Below are positions 4,513 to 57,107 of a stretch of DNA of 64,000 nucleotides, one piece after another; position 1 is the stretch's first letter, and every line of letters begins with the position of its first letter. Origin of the DNA: Spiribacter halobius (GTDB taxonomy: Bacteria; Pseudomonadota; Gammaproteobacteria; Nitrococcales; Nitrococcaceae); assembly GCF_020883455.1 (NCBI RefSeq), contig NZ_CP086615.1, forward strand, positions 2,914,001-2,978,000, given 5' to 3'. The notes under the pieces are model-generated. The model saw only the letters and a program-made list of their open reading frames with translations. It had not been told where the DNA came from and ran no database searches. Both the position numbers and the translations under genes were made by a program.

Positions 4513-7073
<2,561 letters not shown>

Positions 7074-15939: not shown

Positions 15940-16395
15940 TCAGCCGGCCAGCGCCCGCCACGGGCCCGGGGCACCGCCGGCGGCGGTCAGCATGGCGCGG
16001 CGCCCGCCGGCCATCGGCTCGAGCCGCACGCTGAGCAGCGGCGCCGGCAGCACGCCCTCCCCCCGCTCCGGCCATTCCACCAGCAGCAGCCCCTCCGCGG
16101 TAAGCTCGCGGAGGCCGATGTACTCGAGCTCCTCCGGGTCGCCCAGGCGGTAGAGGTCGAGGTGGAAGACGCGCGCGCCCGAGCCGATCGCATAGGGCTC
16201 CACCAGGGTGTAGGTGGGGCTGCGTACCGGGCCGTCGTGCCCGGCCGCCCGCAGCAGCCCCCGGACCAGGGTGGTCTTGCCGGCGCCCAGATCCCCCACC
16301 AGGTGCACGCTGCCGCGCGCCGGCAGGCTCTCCGCCAGCCGCGCGCCCAGCGCCTCGGTGGCGGCCGCGTCCGCCAGCTCCACGACCCGGCTCAA
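15940..16395 (-). CDS. tsaE: tRNA threonylcarbamoyladenosine biosynthesis ATPase TsaE
   Basis: ATPase partner of TsaB/TsaD in t6A37 synthesis. 151 aa. P-loop GDLGAGKTT at 34-42, SPTYTLVEPY, FHLDLYRLGDPEELEYIG and LVEWPERGEGVLP. The TTG start at 16395 overlaps the nnr stop (TTGA); it was chosen because MSRVVELADAAATEALGARL aligns with E. coli TsaE from residue 2. Confidence 0.95.
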   Translation of the reverse strand: MSRVVELADAAATEALGARLAESLPARGSVHLVGDLGAGKTTLVRGLLRAAGHDGPVRSPTYTLVEPYAIGSGARVFHLDLYRLGDPEELEYIGLRELTAEGLLLVEWPERGEGVLPAPLLSVRLEPMAGGRRAMLTAAGGAPGPWRALAG

Positions 16396-17873
16396 GCGGG
16401 ATTCACCACGGTGCGCAGCGCGGCAAACAGATCGCCGGCGAGCAGGCCGCGCTCGCCCCCCGCCGCCGCGGCGCGGTCGGCGGCGGTGGCATGCACCAGC
16501 GCGCCGGCGGCCGCCGCCTCGAACGCCGTCAGCCCCTGTGCCAGCAGCGCGGCGACAACCCCGGTGAGCACGTCACCCATGCCGCCGCTCGCCATGCCCG
16601 GGTTGCCGGCGGCGCAGACCGCACAGCGCTCGACGTCCGCCACCACGGTGCCGGCGCCCTTCAGCACCACCGCAGCGCGGTAGCGGCGGGCGATCTCCTG
16701 CGTCGCGGCGAATCGGTCCTGCTGGATGCTCGTCGTGTCCGTATCGAGCAGGCGGGCTGCCTCGCCGGGGTGCGGCGTCAGCACCCGCGGGCCGTCGGGC
16801 AGTGCCATCCCGGCCGACAGCAGACTGAGGGCGTCAGCGTCCAGAACCAGCGGCAGCCCCGCAGCCAGGGCCTCCGCGAGCAGCGCCCGCCCCCATGGGC
16901 CGGTGCCGAGCCCGGGGCCGCAGGCGAGCACCGTGGCCCGCTCCAGCAGGGGGGCGAGGGACTCGCCCTCCTCCACGCCCCGCACCATGAGCTCCGGACG
17001 CGCGGCGAGCACGGCCGGGACATGCGCCGGCCGTGTCGCGACGCTCACCAGCCCCGCCCCGGTACGGCCCGCCGCCTCGGCGGCGAGGCGCGCGGCACCG
17101 CCCATGCCGTGGTCGCCCCCCACCACCAGCACATGCCCGAACCGGCCCTTGTGCGCGGTCCGCTCCCGCGGCGGCAGCCGATCCCGCAGCCAGCCGTCAC
17201 CGAGCAGCCGCGCCACGGGTGCCGGCGCATCGTAGACGCCCGGCGGCACCTGCAGGTCGTCGAACACCACCTCGCCGGTGTATGCCGGCGCGTCGCCCGT
17301 GAACAGCCCCTGCTTCAGACCGATGAAGGTCGGCGTCAGCGCGGCGCGAACGGCCACGCCCAGGACCGCGCCGGTCCGTGCGCTCAGCCCCGAAGGTACG
17401 TCCACCGCCAGCACCGGTCGGCCGGCAGCGTTGACGGCCGCAATGACCTCCCCAAGCTCTCCCGCCACAGGCCGGTCGAGGCCGGTGCCGAGCAGGGCGT
17501 CCACGACGAGGTCCGCACCGGCGAGATGTTCCGCATCGAAGGCCGTCGGCTCGAGCTGCTCACCGGCGCCACGGGCGGCCGCGGCGGCGCTGCCCTTCAG
17601 TCGCTCGATGGGCACCAGCGGGCAGAGGGTCACTTCCAGCCCGTCCTGGTGCGCGCGCCGGGCGATGACGTAGCCGTCGCCGCCATTGTTGCCGCCGCCA
17701 CAGAGCACCAGCAGCCGCCGTGCGTCCGGGAAGCGCCGCCGCAGCAGGCGGTAGGCGCTGGCCCCTGCCCGCTCCATCAGCTGCTCGCCGGGCAGCCCAT
17801 AGTCCTCTATGGCACGGCGGTCGAGCTCGCGCACCTGCTCGGGGGTGTAGAGGGCGTCAGGCAGCTCGCTCAT
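16392..17873 (-). CDS. nnr: Bifunctional NAD(P)H-hydrate epimerase / ADP-dependent dehydratase
   Basis: Repairs hydrated NAD(P)H. 493 aa. N-terminal epimerase domain (about 1-215) with LCGGGNNGGDGYVIARR and DALLGTGLDRPV; C-terminal ribokinase-like dehydratase (about 225-490) with VVGGDHGMGGAARLA, LACGPGLGTGPW, LTPHPGEAARLL and NPGMASGGMGDVLTG. ATG 17873 (MSELPDAL) is chosen over a GTG 12 bases upstream. In E. coli the divergent neighbour is queG; here the prophage separates them. Confidence 0.95.
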   Translation of the reverse strand: MSELPDALYTPEQVRELDRRAIEDYGLPGEQLMERAGASAYRLLRRRFPDARRLLVLCGGGNNGGDGYVIARRAHQDGLEVTLCPLVPIERLKGSAAAAARGAGEQLEPTAFDAEHLAGADLVVDALLGTGLDRPVAGELGEVIAAVNAAGRPVLAVDVPSGLSARTGAVLGVAVRAALTPTFIGLKQGLFTGDAPAYTGEVVFDDLQVPPGVYDAPAPVARLLGDGWLRDRLPPRERTAHKGRFGHVLVVGGDHGMGGAARLAAEAAGRTGAGLVSVATRPAHVPAVLAARPELMVRGVEEGESLAPLLERATVLACGPGLGTGPWGRALLAEALAAGLPLVLDADALSLLSAGMALPDGPRVLTPHPGEAARLLDTDTTSIQQDRFAATQEIARRYRAAVVLKGAGTVVADVERCAVCAAGNPGMASGGMGDVLTGVVAALLAQGLTAFEAAAAGALVHATAADRAAAAGGERGLLAGDLFAALRTVVNPA

Positions 17874-17932
17874 GGCATTACGCACCGTCGCGTCTGCAGG
17901 GCAGCGTGGGACACTTGCCGGCGAATCACGCT

Positions 17933-17959
17933 GAGTTTCGAGTTTCGGGATTCAAGTTT
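17933..17959. repeat. Inverted heptamer-arm repeat, copy D, left arm
   Basis: A run of TTTCGAG/TTTCGGG/TTCAAG units whose complement lies at 57114-57145, on the far side of the prophage. Bringing the flanks together restores an element like copies A-C, with an approximately 90-bp core in the nnr-queG gap. Positions 17958-17959 are also the end of the reverse transcriptase stop codon. Confidence 0.6.
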
Positions 17960-19091
17960 ACAGTGCCTGCATACCGATGGGCTCGGCGCACTGCCCGCTG
18001 TAACGCGCCACGTTGATTGCGACAGCGCGCCACGTTGATTGCGACACCGTAGCAGTGCCCTGTAAAGGCCGCTGAAAGACGGCTGCACCGAGGAGCTGGC
18101 GGCGGAGGTTCTCGGTGTCGGCGTGCTCGGCGTGAGCCACCCACGAGGCGATGCGCTGGCGGACCTCGGGGAGGGTGATCTCGCCACAGGCATAGCGCCA
18201 CTGTAGCTCGCGCAGGCGGGCCTTCATGCGGCGGATGGAGTCGCGGCGCAGGAGGCGCTTGTGGGCCCAGATGCGGTAGCCGAGGAAGTTCACGCCGCGG
18301 GTGGCGGGCAGGACGCTCGTCTTGCTGAAGCGCAGCCCCAGGCTCGCGAGATTGGTTTCGAACGCGGCGCGCACCTGGAGCGCCTCGGTACGGCTCCTCA
18401 CCAGCACCACCATGTCGTCCATGTAGCGCGCGTAGCGACGCAGGCGCAGATCCCGCTTCGCCCACTGGTCGATGCGGTTGCCGACGAGATTGGCGATCCA
18501 CTGGCTGGTGAGGTTGCCCACCGGAATACCGCAAGGGTCGAGCTCGTCCGTGCCCGCGGTGCTCTGGATGATGCGGTCCAGGAGCAGGAGCGTGTCGGGG
18601 CAGCGGATCTTGTCGCGCACCACGGCCCGCGCGAGGCTGTGGCGGATCGAGGGGAAGTACTTGCTCACGTCCATCTTAAGCACCCACACCGGGCCGGTCG
18701 CCTGCATGCCGCGCAGCCACGACTGCACCCGGTTCGCGCCCGCGTGCGTGCCCTTGCCGACGCGGCAGGCGAAGCTGTCGGCGATCATCGCGCGGTCCCA
18801 GATCGGCCCGCAGACGCTGCAGATGGCGTGCTGCGCCACGCGATCGCGGTAGGGCGCGGCGAGGATCTCCCGGCGCTTCGGCTCGTACACCTCGAACGCG
18901 CGATAGCGGCCCGGCTGATAGGTGCCCCAGAGCATCTCCATTTGCAGCCGGCCGAGCTCCTCCCACAGCTGTGCTTCAAAGGCGAGTATCTCGTCGCGAT
19001 TGCGCTTGCCGAGGCGCGCCTTTCGGTGGGCCGATATGAGGTTGCCCCAGTCGACGATCTGCCCAATTAGCCGCTTGTGTTTCGCACCCAT
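17958..19091 (-). CDS. DGR reverse transcriptase
   Basis: Copies the template repeat with adenine-specific errors to diversify the variable protein. 377 aa. AAGGAG lies 5 bases before ATG 19091. RT motifs: VLKMDVSKYFPSIRH (137-151), the DGR-type motif GIPVGNLTSQW (188-198, with SQ where group II introns have SP), catalytic RYARYMDDMVVL (219-230) and GVNFLGYRI (266-274). There is no maturase or endonuclease domain. The frame passes through both R1/R2 sites and the phage end; residues 365-377 and the stop are host-encoded. The normal C-terminus is therefore uncertain. Confidence 0.95.
   Translation of the reverse strand: MGAKHKRLIGQIVDWGNLISAHRKARLGKRNRDEILAFEAQLWEELGRLQMEMLWGTYQPGRYRAFEVYEPKRREILAAPYRDRVAQHAICSVCGPIWDRAMIADSFACRVGKGTHAGANRVQSWLRGMQATGPVWVLKMDVSKYFPSIRHSLARAVVRDKIRCPDTLLLLDRIIQSTAGTDELDPCGIPVGNLTSQWIANLVGNRIDQWAKRDLRLRRYARYMDDMVVLVRSRTEALQVRAAFETNLASLGLRFSKTSVLPATRGVNFLGYRIWAHKRLLRRDSIRRMKARLRELQWRYACGEITLPEVRQRIASWVAHAEHADTENLRRQLLGAAVFQRPLQGTATVSQSTWRAVAINVARYSGQCAEPIGMQAL
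17994..17998. repeat. 5-bp target-site duplication, left copy
   Basis: CCCGC directly abuts the first TG of the prophage and is repeated exactly at 57059-57063 after the terminal CA. Five-base duplications are the hallmark of Mu-type transposition. Confidence 0.88.
17999..18046. repeat. Phage right end with tandem transposase-binding-type sites (R1, R2)
   Basis: After the terminal TG come two identical 21-bp units, 18004-18024 and 18026-18046, with a 22-bp period; each ends TTGCGACA. Measured from the end they finish at +26 and +48, matching the known R1/R2 layout of Mu. The left end has a related site at the same distance (ends +26, ACGACA). Confidence 0.75.
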
Positions 19092-19260
19092 TCTCGCTCC
19101 TTGAAAAGGGCGCCCGGCCAGGGTTTTCGCGCACGCTACTCGCGCTGACCGGGCTTTCGTCTTCGGCCCGGCTTGCGGCCGGGACCAGGACGGAACGGCT
19201 GACCCCTGTGGGGATCTCAGGTGACGGCGACCGCGGCGCCGCCCTCTCTGGGTAGTCGGG

Positions 19261-19390
19261 TCACAGACGCAGCGCAGGCCCACATTGCCATTCGCGTTCC
19301 ACGGATTCGCATTCAAGTTGAGGCAGCGCGCACCGGCGTGCACGCCCTCGTCGAATTTGCCGCCGCCAATGAAGCAGCGCCAATCGGCGT
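19261..19390 (-). repeat. DGR template repeat (TR)
   Basis: 130 bp between avd and the RT gene, matching VR at 19784-19913. On the coding strand it contains AAC/AAT/GAT/ATT codons at the variable positions, the usual DGR design because adenine-mutagenised AAY gives many residues but no stop. Homology starts in the TGTGAC at the 3' end and stops abruptly after ACGCCG at the 5' end. Confidence 0.96.
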
Positions 19391-19417
19391 CGAAACCCGC
19401 TCCGCCCTTTGCAACGA

Positions 19418-19777
19418 TCACTTCAGGCGCTGCCGCCAGGCGCCGACCATCGCTCCGATCTCGGAGAGCTGCCCGGCGGCCTCGCCCACTCGCTTCGCGC
19501 CCAGCAGCCGGCGCTCGGCGCCGTGCCGCAGGAGCGCATGAAGATACCGGATCTGCTCGTCGGCCCGATAGACCTTGCTCTTCTGGCCGCTCGTCGCCGC
19601 CTCGATGAGGCGCCGCACGAGCTCCCAGAGGGCGGCCTCGAGCCGGACCGCGAAGCGGTAGCGCTGGTGCTTCGGGATCCGGTCGATCTGCGGGCCGAGG
19701 TCGGCGATCAGCCGCTCGGCCTTGCTCACGACCACGAGGCCCCGCTGCCGCGGGACCTCTTCAGGGCGCCAGGTCAC
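19418..19777 (-). CDS. avd: DGR accessory variability determinant (Avd)
   Basis: Four-helix-bundle protein that binds the RT and TR RNA and is required for mutagenic homing. Up to 119 aa, basic. The family pattern is present: RIPKHQRYRFAVRLEAALWEL, EAATSG, IRYLHALLRHGAERRLLG and EIGAMVGAWRQ at the C-terminus. A GTG at 19777 overlaps the target-gene stop (GTGA). A later GTG in GLVVVSKAERL would place the start after the VR-proximal hairpin and is an alternative. Confidence 0.88.
   Translation of the reverse strand: MTWRPEEVPRQRGLVVVSKAERLIADLGPQIDRIPKHQRYRFAVRLEAALWELVRRLIEAATSGQKSKVYRADEQIRYLHALLRHGAERRLLGAKRVGEAAGQLSEIGAMVGAWRQRLK
19736..19759 (-). promoter_or_regulatory. GGCA-tetraloop hairpin downstream of VR
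   Basis: On the coding strand, GAGGTCCCGC, loop GGCA, then GCGGGGCCTC: a 10-bp stem with one G-T wobble. It begins 24 bp after VR. In other DGRs a hairpin or cruciform with a GRNA tetraloop just downstream of VR stimulates homing; GGCA fits that consensus. It also overlaps the 5' part of avd. Confidence 0.65.
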
Positions 19778-20817
19778 AGGGCGTCACAGACGCAGCGCAG
19801 GCCCACACCGCCATTCGCGCCCCACGGATTCGCAGGCAAGAAGAGGCAGCGCGCACCGGCGTGCACGCCCTCGCCGAAGTTGCCGCCGCCAAGGAAGCAG
19901 CGCCAACCGGCGTGATAGACCTCGCCACGGGCAAAGGCCGAATCCTGCCCGACGTCGACGACCGTGCGATCCCAGGCAAACGTGCCGCCCAAATCGATTT
20001 GGTTATCCAGCCAGTCCCACAGGTTCCCAACGGCGTCCACGACGTTGAACATGCTCACCGCCTTGGCGACGCCGCCCGCGGTGGTCGGGCCGGTGTTGCT
20101 GGTATCCGACCAGGCGGTGTCGTTGTTGGCGTCCGCGCCCTGGGGCGCGCCCACGGCGTAGGTGAGGAACTCCTCGACGGTCGGCAGGCGCTTGCCGGCG
20201 TTGCGGGCGAGCACATGGAAGTCGACCCTGGCGTACACGTCGTCCTTGATCAGCGTCGCCCCGTACTGGCTCACCGGCACGTTCTCCGGCCAGGTGCCGC
20301 TGCCCTCGCTGTTCAGGTAGATGTCCACCCACAGCCGCCCCGGCACGACCTCCACCATGCCGCTCGGGTCGCACTTCGGGCGGTGCTGCAGGTCCCACAC
20401 CGAGTTCGGCACGATCTGAGTCGCCGGCGAGTAGGCGCTGTCGTAGCGCTCCGCCACCGGGCGCACGCGGCCGTAGTGGAAGCCGCCGATCTTGCGGCTG
20501 GTGCCCGCCGTGTAGCCGGAGGGCACGGTCGAGTTCTTGCTCGCCAGCCACTGCGCGGTGCCGGAGGGGTCCGTGACGGCATAGATGTAGATGTCATCGC
20601 CGAGGGCCAGCGCGTCAAAGGTGCCATCGTTGTTGCCAGCCCCGAGCGGATCCCAGTCTGTCTGCGGCGCGAGCACGTACCCCTGGCTATTGCCGCCGAT
20701 GTTGGCCATGCCCTCGGGCAGGTTCAGGGTGTCGCCCGTGCCCTTCTCGATGTGCCCCATCAGGGCGATGAACCCCGCGGCCTGCGCGGGGAGGATGATG
20801 CGGTCGCCGGATGCCAT
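19774..20817 (-). CDS. DGR variable tail protein with C-type-lectin / FGE-like fold
   Basis: 347 aa, probably the receptor-binding protein at the tail-fibre tip. The N-terminal 140 residues are Gly/Asp-rich and fibre-like. The C-terminal half has formylglycine-generating-enzyme landmarks: GKRLPTVEEF, FNVVDAVGNLWDWLDN, AGWRCFLGGGNF and the ending VGLRCVCDAL. This fold displays DGR diversity in Mtd and TvpA. Stop overlaps the avd GTG. The current VR state is one phenotype of a diversified family. Confidence 0.9.
   Translation of the reverse strand: MASGDRIILPAQAAGFIALMGHIEKGTGDTLNLPEGMANIGGNSQGYVLAPQTDWDPLGAGNNDGTFDALALGDDIYIYAVTDPSGTAQWLASKNSTVPSGYTAGTSRKIGGFHYGRVRPVAERYDSAYSPATQIVPNSVWDLQHRPKCDPSGMVEVVPGRLWVDIYLNSEGSGTWPENVPVSQYGATLIKDDVYARVDFHVLARNAGKRLPTVEEFLTYAVGAPQGADANNDTAWSDTSNTGPTTAGGVAKAVSMFNVVDAVGNLWDWLDNQIDLGGTFAWDRTVVDVGQDSAFARGEVYHAGWRCFLGGGNFGEGVHAGARCLFLPANPWGANGGVGLRCVCDAL
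19784..19913 (-). repeat. DGR variable repeat (VR)
   Basis: 130 bp at the 3' end of the target gene, covering residues about 302-345. Relative to TR it carries 6 A-to-G, 4 A-to-C and 2 A-to-T changes and no others. Changed residues are 304, 309, 313, 315, 326, 328, 333 and 337 (D-G, I-L, K-N, D-G, N-F, N-P, N-G, N-G). Confidence 0.96.
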
Positions 20818-21149
20818 CAGCTGCTCTCCACGGTCGCGATGAGGTCATCCACCTCGGCCTCGGTGAAGCCCAGGCGGTGGATCAGTGCGTTCGGGTCGTC
20901 GGTGAGCCGGTGCTGGCGCCGGATGCCCTCCTCGTCGGTGAGCACGAGGTACTCCGGCTCCGGACCGTCCGGCTCCTCGCTCTCGGCGAGCGTGCGGTCG
21001 AAGGTGTAGGCCTTCTGGCGCTCCTTCAGCCCGCGCAGGAACGCGAGCCCCCGGCGCTTGTTGTCCTCGGTCGCCCAAGGCGTGCCGAGGAAGCTCACCA
21101 GGTACTCGACGTCGTAGCGGGTGGAGATGGTCTTGGGGTAGCCGTACAT
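20817..21149 (-). CDS. Hypothetical tail-region protein (110 aa)
   Basis: MYGYPKTISTRYDVEYLVSF; acidic C-terminus with a helical end, GFTEAEVDDLIATVESS. I do not recognise a family. ATG overlaps the upstream stop (TCA/CAT junction at 21149), and its own stop shares a base with the variable-protein start, so it is co-translated with the DGR target. Position suggests a fibre-attachment or assembly role (inference). Confidence 0.75.
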   Translation of the reverse strand: MYGYPKTISTRYDVEYLVSFLGTPWATEDNKRRGLAFLRGLKERQKAYTFDRTLAESEEPDGPEPEYLVLTDEEGIRRQHRLTDDPNALIHRLGFTEAEVDDLIATVESS

Positions 21150-21457
21150 CAGACCTCCTCGAGTGCAAGCACGCCATCGACGACGATCACGCGGTAGTGC
21201 GTGCCCGCCTGCTCCTGGTCCTCGTGCTCGTGCACCGCGCGGCTGAGCTGGTCGAGGTCGGTGTGGTCGGGCGTGCGGCCCTTGTAGGTGATCACCCGGC
21301 GCAGCGCTTCGGTGACCATGTGATACCAATAGGCACCCGGTCTAGTCGCCGGGATGCCCTGCGTGGGATTGCCATCAGTGGGATACCCCACCGACGGATC
21401 CGTGAAGACGGCGGGTGCGGACGCTGCGGCGTCGCTTTCCCAGACTCTGTCGACCAT
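21149..21457 (-). CDS. Hypothetical tail-region protein (102 aa)
   Basis: MVDRVWESDAAASAPAVFTD; a Pro/Gly-rich N-terminal half and HTDLDQLSRAVHEHEDQEQ followed by a short beta-rich end (YRVIVVDGVLALEEV). Unrecognised. Sits between gp48 and the DGR target, where tail-fibre genes normally start, so it may be a short fibre or adaptor. Confidence 0.72.
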   Translation of the reverse strand: MVDRVWESDAAASAPAVFTDPSVGYPTDGNPTQGIPATRPGAYWYHMVTEALRRVITYKGRTPDHTDLDQLSRAVHEHEDQEQAGTHYRVIVVDGVLALEEV

Positions 21458-21475
21458 GACTCTCTACAGCCTCCG

Positions 21476-22057
21476 TTATCCGTAGGCGAACAGCACGTCG
21501 GTGTGGGCCGGCTTGAAGCGCTCGATCACGCACTCGAGGCGCTCGTTGCCCCAGGTGGCGAGGGGCTCGTCCACGGTGCCGGCGACGGTGAGGTAGGTGA
21601 CCGTCGACTCCGGCGAGCGCACGGTCCAGGCCCAGCGCCAGGTGTCACCCTTGATCGGGTGCGCCACGTCGTCGGCCACCGTATGCGGGTGGTGCTCCTC
21701 GATGGTGATCTCGTAGCCGAGCGCGGCCGCGAGCTCGACGTAGTAGTTGCGGCTCTGGCCGCCGGTGCCGATGAGCACGCGCACGAGCGCGGCGCGGCGC
21801 TCCTCGAGCGTCTGCTCGCCCGGCACGCAGGGATCGGGCAGGCCGGCGACGCGCTCCCAGTCGGCGAGCAGCTCGTAGGTGGTGCGGACGTCGGCTTCGT
21901 CGCGGAGCGTCTCGGCGCGGCCATCGGCCCGGGCGAGCTCGCCGGCGAGGGCCTCGAGCAGCTGCTGCCAGCGGCTGTCGGCGTCCGCGGGCAGCGCCTG
22001 ACCCGGGGGCAGCAGTGCGTGGAGCGCCCGGCGGTAGTCATCGCGCGTCAGAGCCAC
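21476..22057 (-). CDS. Mu gp48-like baseplate protein (DUF2313/YmfQ)
   Basis: 193 aa. Opening VALTRDDYRRALHALLPPGQA and LADWERVAGLPDPC are typical of the DUF2313 family that connects baseplate wedge and tail fibre in Mu-like phages. GTG start overlaps the gp47 stop by 10 bases. Confidence 0.85.
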   Translation of the reverse strand: MALTRDDYRRALHALLPPGQALPADADSRWQQLLEALAGELARADGRAETLRDEADVRTTYELLADWERVAGLPDPCVPGEQTLEERRAALVRVLIGTGGQSRNYYVELAAALGYEITIEEHHPHTVADDVAHPIKGDTWRWAWTVRSPESTVTYLTVAGTVDEPLATWGNERLECVIERFKPAHTDVLFAYG

Positions 22058-23106
22058 GTAATCACCCCGAGCACGGCGATCTCATTGATCGTGTGGGTGA
22101 CGTCCCCGGTCGGGCTCTGCAGCTCGTGGCGGCTCTCGCCGGCGGCGACGTAAATCACCCCGGAGAGCTGCTCGCGGTAGATGGTGCCGCCCGGCTCGGC
22201 GACGCGGGCGAAGAAGTCGTTCAGCGCGTCGGTGACGCGCTCGCGCACCTCGGTGCTGTCCGGCGTGAGCTTGATGGAGAGATCGAGCGGCGCCTCGGTG
22301 GGGGCCACCACGTAGAAGCCGGCCGTGACCGGGCGCTCGGCGTCGATGTAGTCCTCGATGGCGCCGGTCACCTCGGCCGGCGGGGTGATCGGGTCGAGCT
22401 CGTCGCAGACCGCGCGCACGGTGACGGTGCCGGGGTCGGTCTCCTGCGGATAGACCCAGGCGCGGGTCACGTCCGGGTGCGCCTCGAGCGCCCAGCGCTC
22501 GTAGTCGTCGCGGCTGCCGCCGTGCGGGCGGCGGCGGATGCGCTCGAGCAGCCGCTCGCGCAGGCGCGCGTCGCCCTCCTCGTCGGCGCCGCCGGTGAGC
22601 CCGCCGGCGGCCACCACCGCCTCGCTGTCGATGCCGGTGACGGCCGTGAGCAGGCGCAGCGTAGCGCCCTCGGCGAGGTTGCCATCCGCCCCAGCCTCAA
22701 CGGCAGTGACGGCCACCGTGCCGGTGCCGGCCGCATCGAGGGTGAGCGTCGTGTCGGTGGTGTAGGTCTGCCCGGCGTCGGACTCGAGCTCGATGCCCGC
22801 GGGGAGCTCGGCGCCGGCGGAGCCGGTGACGTCCACATTGCCCGCTGCCGGGACCGCCGCTGCGCGGCTCAGTCCCCAGATGCCGGCCCAGCGCTCCAGG
22901 TGCTCGGCCTCGGCCGTGTCGATCATCAGCTGGCGGGCGAGCCAGTCGAGGTAGCCGTAGAGCCCCTGCACCGCGCCCGCCTCGGCGCTCGCGAGCACGC
23001 CGAGCAGCGAGCGGCGCAGCTCCGGCTGCGCGCCGGGCAGCCGCGCGCGGATGTCGGCGCGGATCCGCTCTATGAGCTGCTCGAGCGTGGGGCTCTGCCA
23101 GGGCAT
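22048..23106 (-). CDS. Baseplate J-like protein (Mu gp47)
   Basis: 352 aa. Baseplate wedge component. Landmarks: MPWQSPTLEQLIERIRADI, WGLSRAAAVPAAGNVDVTG, GADEEGDARLRERLLERI, GGSRDDYERWALEAHPDVTRAWVYP. The ATG overlaps the gp46 stop. Same relative position as in Mu. Confidence 0.92.
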   Translation of the reverse strand: MPWQSPTLEQLIERIRADIRARLPGAQPELRRSLLGVLASAEAGAVQGLYGYLDWLARQLMIDTAEAEHLERWAGIWGLSRAAAVPAAGNVDVTGSAGAELPAGIELESDAGQTYTTDTTLTLDAAGTGTVAVTAVEAGADGNLAEGATLRLLTAVTGIDSEAVVAAGGLTGGADEEGDARLRERLLERIRRRPHGGSRDDYERWALEAHPDVTRAWVYPQETDPGTVTVRAVCDELDPITPPAEVTGAIEDYIDAERPVTAGFYVVAPTEAPLDLSIKLTPDSTEVRERVTDALNDFFARVAEPGGTIYREQLSGVIYVAAGESRHELQSPTGDVTHTINEIAVLGVITWL

Positions 23107-23555
23107 CAGAGGGCCTCCCAGACGTAGTCGTAGCGCTGCTCGACGGTGCCGCCGCCGCGGCGGCGGATCACCACCCGGAGGGTCAGCCACTCGGCGCGGA
23201 AGTCCTCGGCGGTGACCTCCACGCTCTCGGCGATGCCGTCATCGACGAGCCACTGCAGCGCCTCGCGTGCATAAGCCTCGGCCTGGCGGGCCACCGCGGG
23301 GAGCTCCTTCTCGCGCGCGAGCAGCCAGAGTCGCGAGCCGATGAGATCCTCCGACGGCTCGGACCAGGCGTCCGCCCACCAGCCGCGGCGGTCGCTACCG
23401 CCGTCGGGTAGCTCGTCGTCGGTATCGGCGCGGCGGTCGGTGAGCAGCGAGAGCACCACCGCGGTGCGCGGGCTCTCCTCGGCGGCGAGGTCGCCCGCCT
23501 CGAGGGCGATGTCCCGCCGGCCGTCGGCGTCCTGGATGAGGGCGATGTCGGTCAC
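23106..23555 (-). CDS. Mu gp46-like tail protein
   Basis: 149 aa. MTDIALIQDADGRRDIALEA, SDRRGWWADAW and GSRLWLLAREKELP are hallmarks of the gp46 family (related to phage W/gp25 baseplate function). Overlaps gp45 by 4 bases (ATGA). Confidence 0.9.
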   Translation of the reverse strand: MTDIALIQDADGRRDIALEAGDLAAEESPRTAVVLSLLTDRRADTDDELPDGGSDRRGWWADAWSEPSEDLIGSRLWLLAREKELPAVARQAEAYAREALQWLVDDGIAESVEVTAEDFRAEWLTLRVVIRRRGGGTVEQRYDYVWEAL

Positions 23556-32436: not shown

Positions 32437-33369
32437 TTACGCCACGGCGTTCTGGATGAGGAACCCGGACTCGATGCCCGAGAGCACGGGGGCGCGCTCG
32501 TAGGTCACCGGGTACATCCAGGACTTGGCGTTGCGCTCGTTGTAGGGCTCCTCGACCACCGGGTGGCCCCGGAGCGTGTAGGTGTAGCCGTAGCTCGGCA
32601 TGCGGCGGCTGGTGATCTGCTCGGGCACGTACGCCAGCACCACGTCCTTGCCCCAGACGTCGGTCATCTGGGTGGCGCCGTCGCCGAGGTAGACGGCGTC
32701 ACCCACCGCGACCCGGCGCAGGCCCCAGAGGCGGGCGATGAGCTCCACGGTCACCGAGTCCGAGCTCGTGTACTTGACCCGGTCGACGATCTTCGGGTGC
32801 TCGGCGAGCTGGGCGAACACCGCGGCGCTGATCACCGCCACGTTCGGGCGCATGCCCACGGCCTGGCGCACGGTCTCCTTGTAGTCGCGCACCTGGGCGG
32901 AGGGATCGCTCGAGCCGTCGGACCACTGGTCGGTGCCGGAGAGCGCGGTCTTGTGGCTGGTGCTGTAGTTGTTGGCGTCGCGGGCGAGGTCGGCCTGCTC
33001 GATCTCGAGCGCGAGCGAGAGGATCTCCATCGTCTCGCTGGCGGCCTCGCGCCCGAGGTCGATGCCGGGCACCTGGTTGGCGTCCTCCATGTGCTCCCAG
33101 GGCACCATGCCCTCGAGCGCGTCCTGCACGAGCGCGAAGGGCTTGCCCTCGTAGCCGAACTGCACGCGCGCGGTGCTCGCGCCCGGGGCCCGGCGGGTCT
33201 TGTAGCGCCGGAAGCTCTCCTGGCCGAACTCGATGATCTGGCCGCCGCGCTGGCGCACCGGCACCCGCGGGAAGAGCACGCTGCCCACGCGCTCCGGGTG
33301 CGAGTAGCCCTGGGCGACCTCGGTGAGGATCGGGTTGATGACCCGGGCCTGGCTGGTGTTCATGGGCAT
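32437..33369 (-). CDS. Major capsid protein
   Basis: 310 aa. MPMNTSQARVINPILTEVAQ, VGSVLFPRVPVRQRGGQIIE, DQWSDGSSDPSAQVRDYKET and MRPNVAVISAAVFAQLAEHP are typical of HK97-fold capsids of this group (not closely Mu gpT-like by eye). AAGGAG lies 10 bases before the ATG, in keeping with high expression. Confidence 0.88.
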   Translation of the reverse strand: MPMNTSQARVINPILTEVAQGYSHPERVGSVLFPRVPVRQRGGQIIEFGQESFRRYKTRRAPGASTARVQFGYEGKPFALVQDALEGMVPWEHMEDANQVPGIDLGREAASETMEILSLALEIEQADLARDANNYSTSHKTALSGTDQWSDGSSDPSAQVRDYKETVRQAVGMRPNVAVISAAVFAQLAEHPKIVDRVKYTSSDSVTVELIARLWGLRRVAVGDAVYLGDGATQMTDVWGKDVVLAYVPEQITSRRMPSYGYTYTLRGHPVVEEPYNERNAKSWMYPVTYERAPVLSGIESGFLIQNAVA

Positions 33370-33398
33370 GGTGAGTCAGCTCCTTCGCTCTGGGCCGC

Positions 33399-33809
33399 TT
33401 AGCGCAGCAGCACTTCGATGAACTCGCCCGCGGCGCTCGCCGACTCCAGGGCGTGACCGATGACGTACTCCGGCATCTCGCCGCCGGCGAGGATTGCGCC
33501 GTTGGCCGCGGTACTGGTGACCGAGGTGGCGCCGGAGGGGATGTTGATCTCGCCGGTGGAGGGGATCGCGCGCCCGGAGGCGTCGACGATGATGGCGTCC
33601 CCGACGGCGATAGCAGCGCCGGACTCTATGACCGCGGTGCCGAGGGCCTCGACGGTGAGCGGGTCGCCGTCGGCGGCGTCGAAGCGCGCCACGCCGGCGA
33701 CCTTTTGGCCCTGCACGGTGGCCTGGGCGCCGTCGAAGCCGACCGCGCGGCGTTCGGTGACCTGGCCGCTCGCGACCAGGCTCAAGGCGAGGATGGTAGT
33801 GCTCTGCAC
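33399..33809 (-). CDS. Capsid decoration/stabilising protein
   Basis: 136 aa, beta-rich and almost free of aromatic residues: GQVTERRAVGFDGAQATVQG, GVARFDAADGDPLTVEALGT, AIPSTGEINIPSG. Resembles DUF2190/head-decoration proteins placed between protease and capsid. Confidence 0.78.
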   Translation of the reverse strand: MQSTTILALSLVASGQVTERRAVGFDGAQATVQGQKVAGVARFDAADGDPLTVEALGTAVIESGAAIAVGDAIIVDASGRAIPSTGEINIPSGATSVTSTAANGAILAGGEMPEYVIGHALESASAAGEFIEVLLR

Positions 33810-33812
33810 GGC

Positions 33813-34940
33813 TTAGGCCTCCTGTCGCTCCACGGCGCGCACGGCCGTGATGATGTCCACCTTGTGCTGCTCGGCGTAGGCGAGCGCCTTGTGGTGCAGC
33901 GCCGCGGTGCGCGGGTCGACCTCGTAGCCGTCCGCCACCTCCAGGTCCGCCGGCACCTTGCCGCTCTCGCTCTCGCGGCGGGCGCCGCGCTCGCCGTAGT
34001 CGATCGCCTGCGGCAGGCGCTCGAGGAACTCGAGGAACCACTCGCGCGCGGGCTTCTTCACGGCTTCGGCGCCCTCGCCGAACTCGACCACCGCCTCGGC
34101 GTCCTGGGCCTCCAGGAACTCCACCAGGGCGTCGCGGTCGCGCGGCAGCACCCTGCCGGCCTCGACCAGCTTGTCCACGCGCGCGGCGTGCTCGGCGCGC
34201 CGGCGCTTCGCCTCCTCCTGGGCGATCGTCTGCTCGCGCTCGGCGAAGGCCGCCTCCTGCTCCTTGATGCGCTGCTCGCGCTCGGCAATCTCGCGCTCGC
34301 GGCGCTCAACCTCTGCCTTGTCCACGTCGGACACCTCCGTTTTCTCGCTGTACATCGGCTCGGCAACGCTCTCGGGGCGCTCCCGCTCGAGGTCCTCGAT
34401 GGCGTAATCGGGGATGACCCGGTCCGCCTCCTCCGTGCCGTGCCGGGCGATGATCCACTCGCGCAGCCGACGCAGCAGGCCGCGAAGGATCCCGACGTCG
34501 GCCTCGCCGAACTCGAAGGTCACGAGGTCGGCCTCGGCGTCGCCGAACTCCACCTGGCGCAGGCCCTTCAACGCCGGCGGCTGGGCGCCGAGGAAGCCGA
34601 GGTGGCGCAGGTAGTACACGCCGGGCTTCGGGTTGGTCTTCGCCTCGGGGTGGTAGAAGCTCGCGGAGACCTTCTTGAAGCGCCCGTCCCGGACGAGCTC
34701 GGCGAAGGCGGGATCCACCTGGCGGGGCTCGGCCTCGAGGCTGCCCTCGCTATAGGCCAGCCCGCCGACCCAGCCGTAGGCGGGCGCGTCATGCCGGGGG
34801 TGGCCGGCAACGATGGGCGCCTCGTGGAGCTCGGGGTCGTAGGCCGCGGCGGCGGCCTCGAGATCGGCCTCGCTGAACTGCAGCGACGCCCCGGACATGG
34901 CCGTGTGCCTGCCGGGGCGGAAGATCTGGATGCGCTTCAT
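33813..34940 (-). CDS. Head maturation protease with C-terminal scaffold (Mu gpI-like)
   Basis: 375 aa from ATG 34940 (GGAGG 5 bases upstream). Protease part has APIVAGHPRHDAPAYGWVGG (His 47/50) and KKVSASFYHPEA (Ser 92/94). After residue 200 comes a strongly charged coiled coil (REREIAEREQRIKEQEAAFA...), the likely scaffold. Mu makes scaffold Z from an internal start in I; MYSEKTEVSDVDK (about residue 197) is a candidate equivalent start. Confidence 0.88.
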   Translation of the reverse strand: MKRIQIFRPGRHTAMSGASLQFSEADLEAAAAAYDPELHEAPIVAGHPRHDAPAYGWVGGLAYSEGSLEAEPRQVDPAFAELVRDGRFKKVSASFYHPEAKTNPKPGVYYLRHLGFLGAQPPALKGLRQVEFGDAEADLVTFEFGEADVGILRGLLRRLREWIIARHGTEEADRVIPDYAIEDLERERPESVAEPMYSEKTEVSDVDKAEVERREREIAEREQRIKEQEAAFAEREQTIAQEEAKRRRAEHAARVDKLVEAGRVLPRDRDALVEFLEAQDAEAVVEFGEGAEAVKKPAREWFLEFLERLPQAIDYGERGARRESESGKVPADLEVADGYEVDPRTAALHHKALAYAEQHKVDIITAVRAVERQEA

Positions 34941-51523: not shown

Positions 51524-52447
51524 TCACTCCCCTCCCAGGTCGGCCCAGGCCGCGCGGATGTGCTTCACGCCCGGCGTGCCGCCGGCGAACATCGCCGCCA
51601 TCGACAAGGTCTGCGTGAGCCCGCGGAGCGCGCCGGGGCGGCGGGCGATGTGGTGGGCGAGCTGGCGCGCCTCGCGCTCGTCGATGCCCCAGGCGTCCAG
51701 CAGGGCATCCACGTCGCCGTCCTTCGGGCGCCCGAGCCGCACCCGCTTGCTGATGCGGCTGAACAGCTGGGCGAAGCCCATCGAGCGGTTGCCGCCCGTG
51801 AGCTGGGAGTAGACGATCTCGTTGCCCGCGAGCACGACACCGATGCCGGCCGCGTCGTGGATCGAGCGCACGGCGTCGAGCGCCCGGTGGCAGAGGTGCT
51901 GCGCCTCGTCGATCACGAGCAGCCCCCGGGTGTCCCGCACCCGCTCGACGATGTTGTGCTCCACCTGGTGCAGCGCGCCGCTCGTGCGGATGCCGAGTGC
52001 GGCGGCGATGCGGTAGAGGATCGGGCCCGGGCGGGCCGTCGTCGGGGTGGCGGTCACCACCCACACGTTCGGGGACGCGCGCTGGTGGCGGCGGATGGCG
52101 GAGGTCTTGCCCACACCCGCGCCGCCGTAGATGCAGCTGATCGCCGAGGCCATCTGCGCATAGCTGAGCGCGGCCTGGATGGTCGTGGCGGTGGGCGTCT
52201 CCACCCAGTCCGGCGCTTCGGGGAGCTGCGTGGTGAGCTCCTGCTTGGCGCGGCGGGCGTCTAGCCAGCGGCGGAGCTTCGACTCCAGCGCCTGGACGTT
52301 GCCCTCGTAACGGCCCTTGAACCACCGCGAAATGGCGCTTGCGGACAGCCCCGCCTCGCGCGCCACGGAGCCCTGGGTGAGCTCCTCGGCCTCCATGATC
52401 CGGGCGATCTCCTCCTGGAGAGCCCCCTGCAGATGAATCACGCTCAT
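51524..52447 (-). CDS. Transposition target-selector ATPase MuB
   Basis: 307 aa (Mu B is 312). AGGAG lies 6 bases before ATG 52447. N-terminal HTH (LTQGSVAREAGLSASAISRW, 24-43), then AAA+ ATPase: Walker A GGAGVGKT (108-115), Walker B GLLVIDEAQHL (175-185), GNEIVYSQLTGGNRS. Binds target DNA, stimulates MuA and gives target immunity. Confidence 0.94.
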   Translation of the reverse strand: MSVIHLQGALQEEIARIMEAEELTQGSVAREAGLSASAISRWFKGRYEGNVQALESKLRRWLDARRAKQELTTQLPEAPDWVETPTATTIQAALSYAQMASAISCIYGGAGVGKTSAIRRHQRASPNVWVVTATPTTARPGPILYRIAAALGIRTSGALHQVEHNIVERVRDTRGLLVIDEAQHLCHRALDAVRSIHDAAGIGVVLAGNEIVYSQLTGGNRSMGFAQLFSRISKRVRLGRPKDGDVDALLDAWGIDEREARQLAHHIARRPGALRGLTQTLSMAAMFAGGTPGVKHIRAAWADLGGE

Positions 52448-52532
52448 GGCATACTCCTGCTTCGTGCTGATGCGGCCCCAGCGGGGCCGCGCTTCCCAAG
52501 GCCCGGCGGGGCTGCCACCTCGCCGGGCTTTC

Positions 52533-54527
52533 TTAGTCCTCATCCCCTCCCTGCGGCCCGATGGGTAGCTGCTGCGAGAGCAGGCGATCCGCCCTCGCGC
52601 GTACGTCGTCCTGCCAGCGCTGCCGGAACTCCTCGAGCTCGTCGTCCGGCTGTACGTCGCTGCCCACCGCGCGCTTGCGGTCCTCCCAGGCGCCGCGCAC
52701 GACGTTGGTCTGCACCGGTTCCTCGGGCTCCGGGTCGGGGAGGTAGTCGGCGGCCTCGACGGCGCTCATGCGCACCTCGGCCTCCGCCCGCTCCTTCTCC
52801 GCGCGCAGGCGGCGCTTCTGGTTGCGCGCCCACTCGCGGCCGGCGGAGGTGTCGCCGAAGCCGGCGGCGAGGATGCATTCGGCGGCGCCGATGTAGCGCC
52901 CGTCCGGCTGGTAGGCGTGGACCTCCTCGTGGAGGTGGTCCGGGTCGAAGCGCACGACGACCTTGCGCCCGGCGTACTCGATGAGCGCGTCACAGCTGTA
53001 GCGGTTGCGGCCGTGCGGGCCCTTGCTGATGCGCAGCGCCACGGTCGCGTCCTTCTGGACGGTCACCGACTCCGCCGCGAGCAGCCACATGCGCCGCTGC
53101 GCCTCGGTCGCCCGGCGGATCTTCTCGGCGTTGCGCTGGTAGGAGTCACGGAAGGCGGCGTCGAAGGAGAGCTGCCCCGCGCAGATCTCGGTCTCGCGGC
53201 CCTCGCGGGCGTTCCAGGCGCGGATCGCCTGGCGCAGCACGGCGACGAAGGTCTCCCACTCGATCGCCCGCTCGCCGTAATTCTCCGGCTTGGCGGTGAC
53301 GTCCGGGCCGGTGTAGGCACCGGAGAGGAGCTTCGGGTGCTTGTCCACGTACTCGCCGAGGCCGCCGACGCCGAAGGCGCGCTCCACCGGCTTCGCCTGG
53401 CCGTGGCCCTTGCCCTTGTGGACGCTGGTCCAGTGCACTTCGATGCCGAGCTGCGGCATCAGCCCCAGCGGGTCCTCCTCGCGCACCTTGAAGCGGTAGC
53501 GGGTGGGCACGCCGGCGGTGAGCCACTTGTTCGCCGCCGCCCGGGTGTTGTCGATCGTCGCGTGCTCGGGGATGCCGTAGTGCTCGAGCACGTCGCCGAG
53601 CGCGAGGCGGATCATGTCGCTGTGCTCGGTGCGGTCGGTCCGCCAGGCGAGGATCTTGCGGCTGTAGATGTCCTGCCAGAACCAGGTCTTCGGGCGCCCG
53701 ACGGTGCCGTCGGGGAAGCGCACGAACACGTTGTGCTGGTAGCCGTCGCCGTTGATCCAGTAGAGCGCGTGGAGGTCGCGCACCGTGCGCTGCAGCGAGG
53801 GGTAGAGTCGGAGCATGGCGTGCTCGCCCTCGCGCTTGAGCACCCGCAGCGTGCGCGGGATCTTCTGCACCCAGCGCGCGACGGTGCGCTCGCACGGCCA
53901 GGCCCAGCCGTGCGCCTTGGCGGCCTCCGCGGTCCAGTGATGGCAGCTCGCGATCGAGGGTGCCTCCTCGCGCAGGTACTGCGCCTTGAAGAACTCCCAG
54001 GCCTCGGGGCTGCACTCCGCGGTGGCGGTGCGCCCGCTGTAGCCCGGCGCGAGCGCGGCAAGCCAGTCCGCCGGGTCGTAACCCTTCACGGCCTTGAGCC
54101 AGCGGTAGAGCGTCGCGCGGTGCTCGCCGTACTCCCGGGCCACCTCCTGCACCGCGCGCGAGCGGCCGATCTCCTGGCCCACTAGGCGCTCGACGAGCTG
54201 CAGCGCCTTCAGCCGCCGTGCGGCCTCGTCCTTCACGCTTTGCGGCTTGCGGTCGAAGGCGTCCCACAGCGCCTCGCGGTCCACCGGGACCCGGCTCGCC
54301 GCAGGGCGCGTGCGCACCGGCGTCTTTGACTCCTCGAGGAAGCGCCTGAGCACCGCCACCTGGACCTCGTCGGGGAGGCTCTCCAGGGGGTAGAGCCGGC
54401 GGCGGCCGCCGCGGCCGGTGGTCTCCTCGTAGGGCCAGCCCTCGCGGGATGCTCTCCGCTTGGCGGTAGACGCATTGATCCCGAGGGAGTCGGCGATCTG
54501 CCGGACCGTGAAGGCGTGCTCCGTCAT
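52533..54527 (-). CDS. Mu-type DDE transposase (MuA)
   Basis: 664 aa, essentially the Mu A length (663). N-terminal winged-helix region (FTVRQIADSLGINASTAKRR, 6-25) and a second end-binding region (about 90-180). Catalytic core has Asp261 (INGDGYQHNVFVRF), Asp326 (ATIDNTRAA) and Glu382 (KPVERAFG), matching D269/D336/E392 of MuA. C-terminal domain (from about 560) binds MuB. ATG overlaps the upstream stop. Confidence 0.97.
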   Translation of the reverse strand: MTEHAFTVRQIADSLGINASTAKRRASREGWPYEETTGRGGRRRLYPLESLPDEVQVAVLRRFLEESKTPVRTRPAASRVPVDREALWDAFDRKPQSVKDEAARRLKALQLVERLVGQEIGRSRAVQEVAREYGEHRATLYRWLKAVKGYDPADWLAALAPGYSGRTATAECSPEAWEFFKAQYLREEAPSIASCHHWTAEAAKAHGWAWPCERTVARWVQKIPRTLRVLKREGEHAMLRLYPSLQRTVRDLHALYWINGDGYQHNVFVRFPDGTVGRPKTWFWQDIYSRKILAWRTDRTEHSDMIRLALGDVLEHYGIPEHATIDNTRAAANKWLTAGVPTRYRFKVREEDPLGLMPQLGIEVHWTSVHKGKGHGQAKPVERAFGVGGLGEYVDKHPKLLSGAYTGPDVTAKPENYGERAIEWETFVAVLRQAIRAWNAREGRETEICAGQLSFDAAFRDSYQRNAEKIRRATEAQRRMWLLAAESVTVQKDATVALRISKGPHGRNRYSCDALIEYAGRKVVVRFDPDHLHEEVHAYQPDGRYIGAAECILAAGFGDTSAGREWARNQKRRLRAEKERAEAEVRMSAVEAADYLPDPEPEEPVQTNVVRGAWEDRKRAVGSDVQPDDELEEFRQRWQDDVRARADRLLSQQLPIGPQGGDED

Positions 54528-55009
54528 TCCTCGCCCTCCCCGAAGAGATCGAGCTCCGGGGCGAGGGAGCGCGCGACGTTCTCCCGGTGGCCGGCGATGG
54601 CGCCGAGGACGCTGGTCAGCGCGCTGACGGTCTCCTCCGCGTCGGCCTGCCCGCGGTAATAGCGGGCAAGCTGGTTCACCGCCTCGTTGCAGGCGGACTG
54701 GAGCTCCAGCACCTCCTCGTCGGCCGCGGGCTTGCCGCTCGGCATGTCGACCACGAGCTTGTGCGCGCTCGCCGCCAGGTACTGCGTCACGAATGTGGCG
54801 CCCGTGGCGTGCTCGAAGGGCCGGATCAGCACCGCCGGCAAGCGGCCGCTCTCCATCCACTTATAGAGCGCCCACTTGCTCGGCAGCCCCATCAGATCGG
54901 CTACGCGATCCACCGAGAGATTCCGCCGCTCCCGCCCGTATTCCAGGCACAGCTCAATAGCGTGCCGAAGCGAGCGCGGGCTCACCCTTTTCCAATTGCG
55001 TTTACGCAT
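54524..55009 (-). CDS. Phage DNA-binding regulator upstream of MuA (161 aa)
   Basis: From ATG 55009 (GGGGG 7 bases upstream). MRKRNWKRVSPRSLRHAIEL, an HTH-like VDRVADLMGLPSKWALYKWM, then a helical C-terminus (LQSACNEAVNQLARYYRGQA). Found beside the transposase in B3/D3112-like phages. Function not established. An earlier ATG at 55033 has no ribosome site. Confidence 0.75.
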   Translation of the reverse strand: MRKRNWKRVSPRSLRHAIELCLEYGRERRNLSVDRVADLMGLPSKWALYKWMESGRLPAVLIRPFEHATGATFVTQYLAASAHKLVVDMPSGKPAADEEVLELQSACNEAVNQLARYYRGQADAEETVSALTSVLGAIAGHRENVARSLAPELDLFGEGEE

Positions 55010-56601: not shown

Positions 56602-57107
56602 ATGCGAGACGAGGACCTGTCCAGGGAGATCGGCGAGCTCCTCGAGGAACACGAGCGGCCACGCGAGCGCCAGGCCCCGCTCGTCAACATCGTCGGCGAC
56701 GGCAACACGGTGATAATCGGCCCGAGGAATCGCGACCAGGAGGACGACAGCGCGCGCGACCAACAAGCCTGCAACTTAGACGGCCCCGAGCTCGAGGCCT
56801 TGAAACGCCGCATCGATGCGCTGGAAGAGTGTTTGCAAGATCCCCGCAACGCCTCCGCGCCGTCGCGCCCTCGGTCGCACCGCTACTGTCGCACACGCCC
56901 CGCCGCGCCATGTCGCCCGCGCCGTGTCGCAAACCACCCCCGCGCCCCGCGCCCGGCCGGCACGCTCGCTAAGTCCCTGATCCGATTCCCACGAAGGCCC
57001 GCGCCATCCCGCCTAATCCCGCCCACCCGTTCTGTCGTACCCTATGTGTCCCCAAGCACCCGCGCCTGCCCGCCGCAACCGCCTGGGACAGGCACCTCCG
57101 CCGGATC

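Follow-up and report, generated by a model that had tools for sequence, protein, structure and literature searches.

A probably working diversity-generating retroelement of a receptor-binding tail protein in a Mu-like transposable prophage of Spiribacter halobius

We analysed a stretch of 64,000 nucleotides from the genome of Spiribacter halobius (contig NZ_CP086615.1, positions 2,914,001 to 2,978,000). It is called the window below, and all positions are counted in it. The window holds a Mu-like transposable prophage with a diversity-generating retroelement (DGR). In our reading this DGR is intact and probably works, diversifying the receptor-binding protein of the phage tail; we put the probability of this at about 93%. 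A preliminary description of the same DNA had placed a DGR at 17958-20817. All four of its parts are confirmed there on the minus strand: a target gene of the Mtd family, avd (accessory variability determinant), a template repeat (TR) and a gene for a reverse transcriptase (RT). The order target-avd-TR-RT is the one that had been attributed to phage BPP-1, and it matches the BPP-1 record.

The repeat pair

The TR (19260-19390, minus strand) is 131 nt long and contains 22 adenines. The variable repeat (VR; 19783-19913, minus strand) has the same length and forms the 3' end of the target gene. The two are identical at 119 of 131 nt. All 12 mismatches fall at adenines of the TR, replaced in the VR by G (six times), C (four times) or T (twice), and none of the 109 other sites has changed. 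The repeat ends were fixed by a scan blind to base type. The hypergeometric chance that 12 mismatches out of 12 would fall at the 22 adenines is 2e-11. Two repeats lying 523 bp apart could also be an ordinary duplication that has drifted. To this we give virtually no chance, since the one-sided adenine bias, which recurs in the relatives described below, refutes it.

TR adenines fall in fourteen codons, of which seven have two or more, and about 3.7e12 protein variants are possible. By analogy with BPP-1, the TR RNA would be copied by a complex of RT and Avd, with random bases placed opposite the template adenines. The cDNA would then replace the VR in the Mtd-like target, homing being determined by the 3' part of the repeat, which is poor in adenine, and by a hairpin past the VR. 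If this is correct, virions of one lysogen would bear tail tips that differ in receptor specificity.

A search of the 4.17 Mb genome with the TR returned, apart from the TR itself and the VR, nothing but short stretches of 20-28 nt (E above 0.08); no second VR was found in it. No second target was found in the genome either, the target protein matching itself and the TR only. An Rfam scan of 17000-22000 gave no match at gathering scores. The genome has eight other RT matches, whose RVT_1 scores are far above that of the DGR RT. Seven of them (G000 contig 1, e.g. 652663 and 3411761) lie in 506-aa frames, six with identical scores. These other matches look like group II introns, and the seven in 506-aa frames look like one multi-copy intron.

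The target protein

The target gene (19774-20817, minus strand) encodes 347 aa and is predicted from Pfam, PHROG and a structure model to specify an Mtd-family receptor-binding tail protein. It matches PF21916 (Mtd_2nd) with E 4e-28 and 98.4 bits, against a cut-off of 24.6, and the tail protein family phrog_11262 with E 1e-56. A profile built from 17 relatives matched six sequences in the PDB, all of them Mtd. The AlphaFold model, based on an alignment of 77 rows, has a pLDDT of 94.7 and a pTM of 0.91; a first model from 17 close relatives reached a pLDDT of 48.5 and was set aside as poor. Over 301-302 residues the model aligns to five Mtd variants (1YU0-1YU4) with Z scores of 30.9-31.2 and an rmsd of 2.5-2.6. 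The next structural match after Mtd is CalU17, with Z 15.8 over 164 residues. Profile and model thus bear out the FGE/C-type-lectin fold that had been proposed, with Mtd as the closer name: judged by the model, the target has this fold and is specifically a homologue of Mtd.

Could the target be a metabolic enzyme of the SUMF1/EgtB type, as its counterpart in phage YPCBV-1 was annotated, and not a receptor-binding protein? The FGE-sulfatase family of Pfam does match it below the cut-off (20.6 against 23.3 bits), and its C-terminal fold is also that of FGE and EgtB structures. We regard this as very improbable. Over its full length the target reaches Z 31 with Mtd, as against at most about 16 for FGE- or EgtB-like chains over some 130-170 residues. 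The match to Mtd_2nd is above cut-off, the gene lies in the tail operon, and the VR is at the C-terminus.

YPCBV-1, a Chromohalobacter phage (OP380511, locus L035 in our numbering), is the nearest named relative of the window prophage and has been described as Mu-like with DGR genes (PMC9769972). Near the right end both read gp47-gp48-two small genes-target-avd-RT, and their right tips are the same. Identities are 73% for RT, 58% for the target, 59% for MuA and 62% for MuB; unlike in the window, the RT of YPCBV-1 stops inside the phage, at 346 aa. Its authors assigned ORF53 as a SUMF1/EgtB antioxidant auxiliary metabolic gene, and the main text of their paper has neither the term 'template repeat' nor 'variable repeat' (PMC9769972). 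ORF53 (33159-34208) carries a VR at its 3' end, with 14 of 14 TR-VR mismatches at TR adenines. The "SUMF1 antioxidant" gene is therefore the DGR target, and most likely encodes the receptor-binding protein of YPCBV-1. A literature search for SUMF1 together with diversity-generating retroelement matched the YPCBV-1 paper only, and no published correction of the annotation was found by it.

Bordetella phage BPP-1 shares with the window the mtd-avd-TR-brt order, the Mtd fold, the Avd family and a hairpin after the VR. Its RT is 43% and its target 31% identical to ours. Unlike the window, it has an attachment site annotated in its record, with the same sequence as the 3' region of a His-tRNA.

Avd and the hairpin past the variable repeat

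Avd (19418-19777, minus strand; 119 aa) matches PF22296 (bAvd) with E 1.5e-17, and also phrog_3206. Its best solved relative is the bAvd of BPP-1 (Bbp7, 4DWL; E 1.5e-4). Just past the VR, within the first avd codons, a hairpin or cruciform (19736-19759, minus strand) has a 10-bp stem, including one G-T pair, and a GGCA loop. Shuffles of this stretch were equally good in 2 of 100 cases. Guo et al. (2011) report that a hairpin element is needed for homing in BPP-1 and give a GRNA loop consensus; the BPP-1 hairpin adjoins the mtd stop codon, whereas that of the window lies within avd codons (PMC3240598). The window hairpin fits the GRNA-loop element required in BPP-1.

A stem of at least 5 bp around a G[AG][CA]A loop was seen past the VR in 60 of 74 DGR loci, same-genome repeats included, giving 36 distinct hairpins; in the other 14 no such hairpin was found there. 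The scan recovers BPP-1. The first five pairs are paired by selection. Positions 6-9, which are unselected, pair in 33, 33, 31 and 30 of the 36, against 7, 30, 32 and 14 once one strand has been shifted by a single position, a control that discriminates positions 6 and 9 only. The stems are not all of one sequence: at position 4, for example, 26 have C-G and 10 have G-C.

Rewriting of the variable repeat in relatives

We examined 119 loci, some of which are one genome twice; 118 have an Mtd-type target (L036 does not). Pooled over 66 non-redundant TR-VR pairs, the VR departs from the TR at 784 of 1574 TR adenines and at 12 of 6838 other bases, this second count leaning low for a reason given below. 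The pooled set left out loci scoring below 75, L011, L070 and repeats of other records, and it kept L009 (the window's own copy), L035 and L037. In L031 and L033, outside the set, every mismatch is at A (16 and 15 mismatches, respectively).

Comparisons of VR with VR point the same way. Twenty-nine pairs of loci have TRs at least 96% alike. Eleven of these have identical VRs, and most of the eleven are apparently one genome twice; the pairs L089/L090 and L125/L146 each consist of two viral contigs. The remaining 18 differ, at 8-21 TR-adenine sites of the VR and at 0-4 other sites. Between L110 and L111 there are 17 mismatches in 11,395 bp, 14 of them in the VR and all of those at TR adenines. 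Between L103 and L105 there are 16 in 8,371 bp, with 12 in the VR, again all at TR adenines; the L105 record carries MuA. L054 (Pusillimonas caeni) and L055 (Bordetella hinzii) are 97.5% identical over 9.4 kb, with differences in the VR at 10 of the 20 TR-adenine sites and 1 of the 105 others. The viral record L094, which equals L055 over the compared stretches, carries MuA. The VR difference between L054 and L055, across two host genera, may reflect a change of host.

The preliminary description had named a lack of VR diversity in every related genome as a finding that would speak against it. The VRs of relatives do differ, and at adenine sites. As far as sequence comparison goes, such differences imply DGR activity.

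Some loci depart from the usual layout. Two repeats of L011 (9761-9952 and 10872-11063) were considered for a TR and rejected, being two target-like copies with only 7 of 13 mismatches at A. The 43 kb record of L011 has no RT match, and the copies are perhaps two VRs of an off-contig DGR. In L070 (Achromobacter pulmonis), positions 5232-6555 of an N-joined contig hold partial target repeats with differing VRs and a few upstream single-nucleotide differences; two prophages could account for this, or a culture that was sequenced with a mixture of VRs. In L052 and L093 just 155 bp separate TR and VR, and the locus gave no Avd match, possibly an Avd-less variant or a deletion. For the Mtd-family targets of L015, L017, L018, L021, L022, L059, L060 and L062 (three of them named Thalassospira), neither RT nor Avd nor TR was found in the roughly 10 kb that follow; these targets could be fixed tail tips or belong to a remote DGR.

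The reverse transcriptase and the case against a working element

The RT gene (17958-19091, minus strand; 377 aa) matches phrog_1423 with E 2e-120 and PF00078 (RVT_1) with E 3.5e-15. RTs of the DGR kind are marked by YxDD and by an (I/L/V)GxxxSQ motif; here YMDD stands at residue 223 and VGNLTSQ at 191. The best PDB match is the bRT of BPP-1 (8UB7, E 2e-67), to which residues 1-329 align. An ORF of 487 aa (17958-19421) was rejected as the RT gene. It is mechanical, arising because the TR is open in that frame, and the true start is the ATG at 19091, where the alignment of relatives begins.

In relatives whose RTs were read, the protein ends at 335-356 residues, mostly at 342-350. At their stop region the window RT has a gap of about 12 nt against the aligned relatives. 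From there its frame stays open across both 22-nt end repeats and the phage tip and closes in host DNA: residues 1-364 are encoded by the phage, codon 365 is shared, and residues 366-377 come from host DNA.

Several points weigh against our reading. The RT lacks the stop codon of its relatives and carries about 31 extra residues, the last 12 host-derived. The scan that set the repeat ends in the pooled set penalised non-A mismatches more, so that 12 of 6838 leans low; the window's own pair and the direct comparisons of VRs are, in their main result, independent of that scan. The sole other record of the window prophage, L009, is identical over the cassette and provides no independent copy. Finally, in Mushu, a Faecalibacterium phage that is likewise transposable and has a DGR, one study found no clear VR signal (PMC5883640, PMC11792537); the RT of Mushu is only about 30% identical to that of the window.

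A DGR that was active until recently and is now dead, either through an RT with a lost stop and a new tail or through a defective prophage, would be compatible with an RT frame running past the phage tip, and ongoing variation is not visible in one assembly. We consider this unlikely, although it has to be reckoned with. The RT motifs, Avd, TR, hairpin and target are all intact, and the lack of non-adenine drift between TR and VR argues for recent homing. The extra RT residues lie beyond the region aligning to bRT, and the tail may for that reason be neutral. The RT of L110 is also longer (about 356 aa), yet its cassette has recent VR rewriting. We retain an intact and probably working DGR. 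The window itself shows its parts, TR-VR differences confined to adenines, the predicted fold of the target, the hairpin and the transposable backbone; recent rewriting of the VR is seen in relatives, as differences of sequence. We infer that the DGR would be active at present, that the target would be found in virions and that host range would be affected.

Other transposable phages with a retroelement

The combination of a transposable phage with a DGR is not new; it has been in print since 2013-2018, and the window is a good new example. A 2013 paper by Toussaint reportedly has Mu-like phages of Firmicutes with DGRs in its title. The Bacillus phage BalMu-1 (NC_030945) resembles the window in having a transposase and, near its right end and in the same order, a SUMF1-annotated gene, Avd and an RT that is 42% identical. 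It differs in that the window target has no match in it at E 1e-4, and a holin and an endolysin follow the RT.

The hankyphage of Bacteroides was reported in 2018 to have a transposase of the Mu kind, direct repeats of 5 bp, and a DGR whose VR is distinct in each variant (PMC6199706). Unlike in the window, the host is Bacteroides and the target is a large ORF with the VR at residues 2188-2225, described as lacking similarity to characterised proteins. A report of 2025 states that this DGR is active in culture and that the virions yielded no plaques or transfer in the laboratory (PMC12135933). The host range given for YPCBV-1 is narrow, its own host alone being infected among the strains tried (PMC9769972). 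As they are described in these papers, neither YPCBV-1 nor the hankyphage gives support to the idea, put forward earlier for the window, that such a phage would be a fast host-range explorer.

The cassette across phage types

MuA (phrog_310) and tyrosine integrase (PF00589) were sought in 49 of 80 viral records, made up of 18 of the first 21 and 31 of a further 59 viral loci. MuA is present in 13 and an integrase, in one case below cut-off, in 17, with no record having the two together; the other 19, many of them fragments, have neither. In an RT tree of 62 rows, of which 28 are labelled (some being near-copies), the MuA/integrase label needs at least six changes, with some forks weak. The RT nearest to the window's in the tree belongs to another MuA phage, L127 (support 99/85). 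Six genome loci took their labels from identical or near-identical viral records. Four short RTs, eight identical rows, L009, L036 and L070 were omitted, stops were coded X, and the window RT was trimmed to 346 residues. Related cassettes are found in both MuA and integrase phages, and therefore their pairing with transposition is, on these sequences, not exclusive. That such fibre cassettes with a DGR can pass from one prophage to another is already known: a survey of 2012 reported that a kappa-like prophage of Vibrio cholerae gained one (PMC3521204).

A more speculative suggestion can be made. The RT frame runs through the end repeats and the tip, and therefore the host-encoded tail of the RT would change with every new insertion. 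The landing site could then tune the mutator or switch it off, while the cassette of receptor and mutator would move between MuA and tyrosine-integrase phages as one module. We think of this as a long shot.

The prophage and its ends

The prophage occupies 17999-57058 on the minus strand, that is 39,060 bp if its left tip is right. A MuA-type transposase of 775 aa (52533-54860, minus strand) matches DDE_2 (E 1e-98), HTH_Tnp_Mu_2 and Mu-transpos_C of Pfam, and phrog_310. In a genome-wide search for a second MuA it matched itself only. A MuB-type transposition protein of 339 aa (51524-52543, minus strand) matches Phage-MuB_C of Pfam and phrog_296. Other recognised genes are those for terminase, portal, protease, capsid, sheath and tube, and the Mu-type tail and baseplate homologues are Gp45, GpP, gp47, Gp48, sheath and tube.

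On the minus strand the tail operon reads, 5' to 3', gp47, gp48, a 102-aa protein, a 110-aa protein, target, avd, TR and RT. Its gp47, or baseplate J (22048-23190), matches PF04865, and the baseplate protein gp48 (21476-22057) matches Phage_Mu_Gp48. The 102-aa protein (21149-21457) resembles the N-terminus of tail fibres, with seven PHROG matches over residues of about 20-80, among them four tail-fibre families; it is perhaps an adaptor. The 110-aa protein (20845-21177), between the 102-aa protein and the target, gave no match in Pfam or PHROG, and a gene of similar size stands at the same place in YPCBV-1. The position claimed for the DGR, at the end of the tail operon of a transposable phage, holds good: it follows gp48 and two small genes in a prophage with MuA, MuB and homologues of Mu Gp45, GpP and Gp48.

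Mu itself has a Gin-type invertase and an invertible fibre segment, although these are not defining for all transposable phages. It had been claimed that the DGR replaces this segment. None of the three genome matches to PF00239 (serine recombinases, the Gin family) is within the prophage; replacement as such is suggested by position.

The prophage is flanked on the right by nnr/yjeF (16392-17885, minus strand) and on the left by a plus-strand host gene from about 57108, which we take to be queG. Two tandem 22-nt repeats (18004-18047, minus strand) are putative transposase-binding sites, presumably R2 and R1, and similar end repeats with like spacing occur in the relatives L012, L014 and L035. 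The right tip TTACA (17999-18003, minus strand) abuts these repeats on their outer side. The tip sequence CGCGYTACA is present in 9 of 13 relatives checked, eight directly and L056, of which this check took in the last 4500 bases only, in a separate analysis. L107 and L013 gave no tip, and the hits in L101 and L127 are false, lying in RT-coding DNA.

The search for a target duplication gave four TG/CA candidates with 4- or 5-bp repeats. Of these we picked GCGGG, since its right tip is the one that relatives share. The probable 5-bp duplication has its right copy at 17994-17998 and its left copy at 57059-57063 (shuffle P 0.29, weak when taken by itself), and the left phage tip is thus probably at 57058. 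A left-tip motif was no better than shuffles. Among eight left regions tried, those of the window and L012 fit; L012 has the same end layout with the duplication CAGGT (shuffle P 0.08). L014, L102 and L105 do not fit, and the records of L102 and L105 start at a start codon and seem to be without a left end. The match in L128 is deep in the record and probably due to chance, and L101 and L127 relied on the false tips.

Implications

What the window offers is a clean, nearly fully delimited transposable phage with a tail tip that would mutate itself, in a bacterial genome of one contig. In the closest pairs compared, it is the VR that holds most of the changes. The printed annotation of a "SUMF1/EgtB antioxidant" in YPCBV-1 is corrected to a DGR target, most likely the receptor-binding protein. 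Finally, related cassettes serve phages with quite different modes of chromosome entry, and transposition is one of several pairings.

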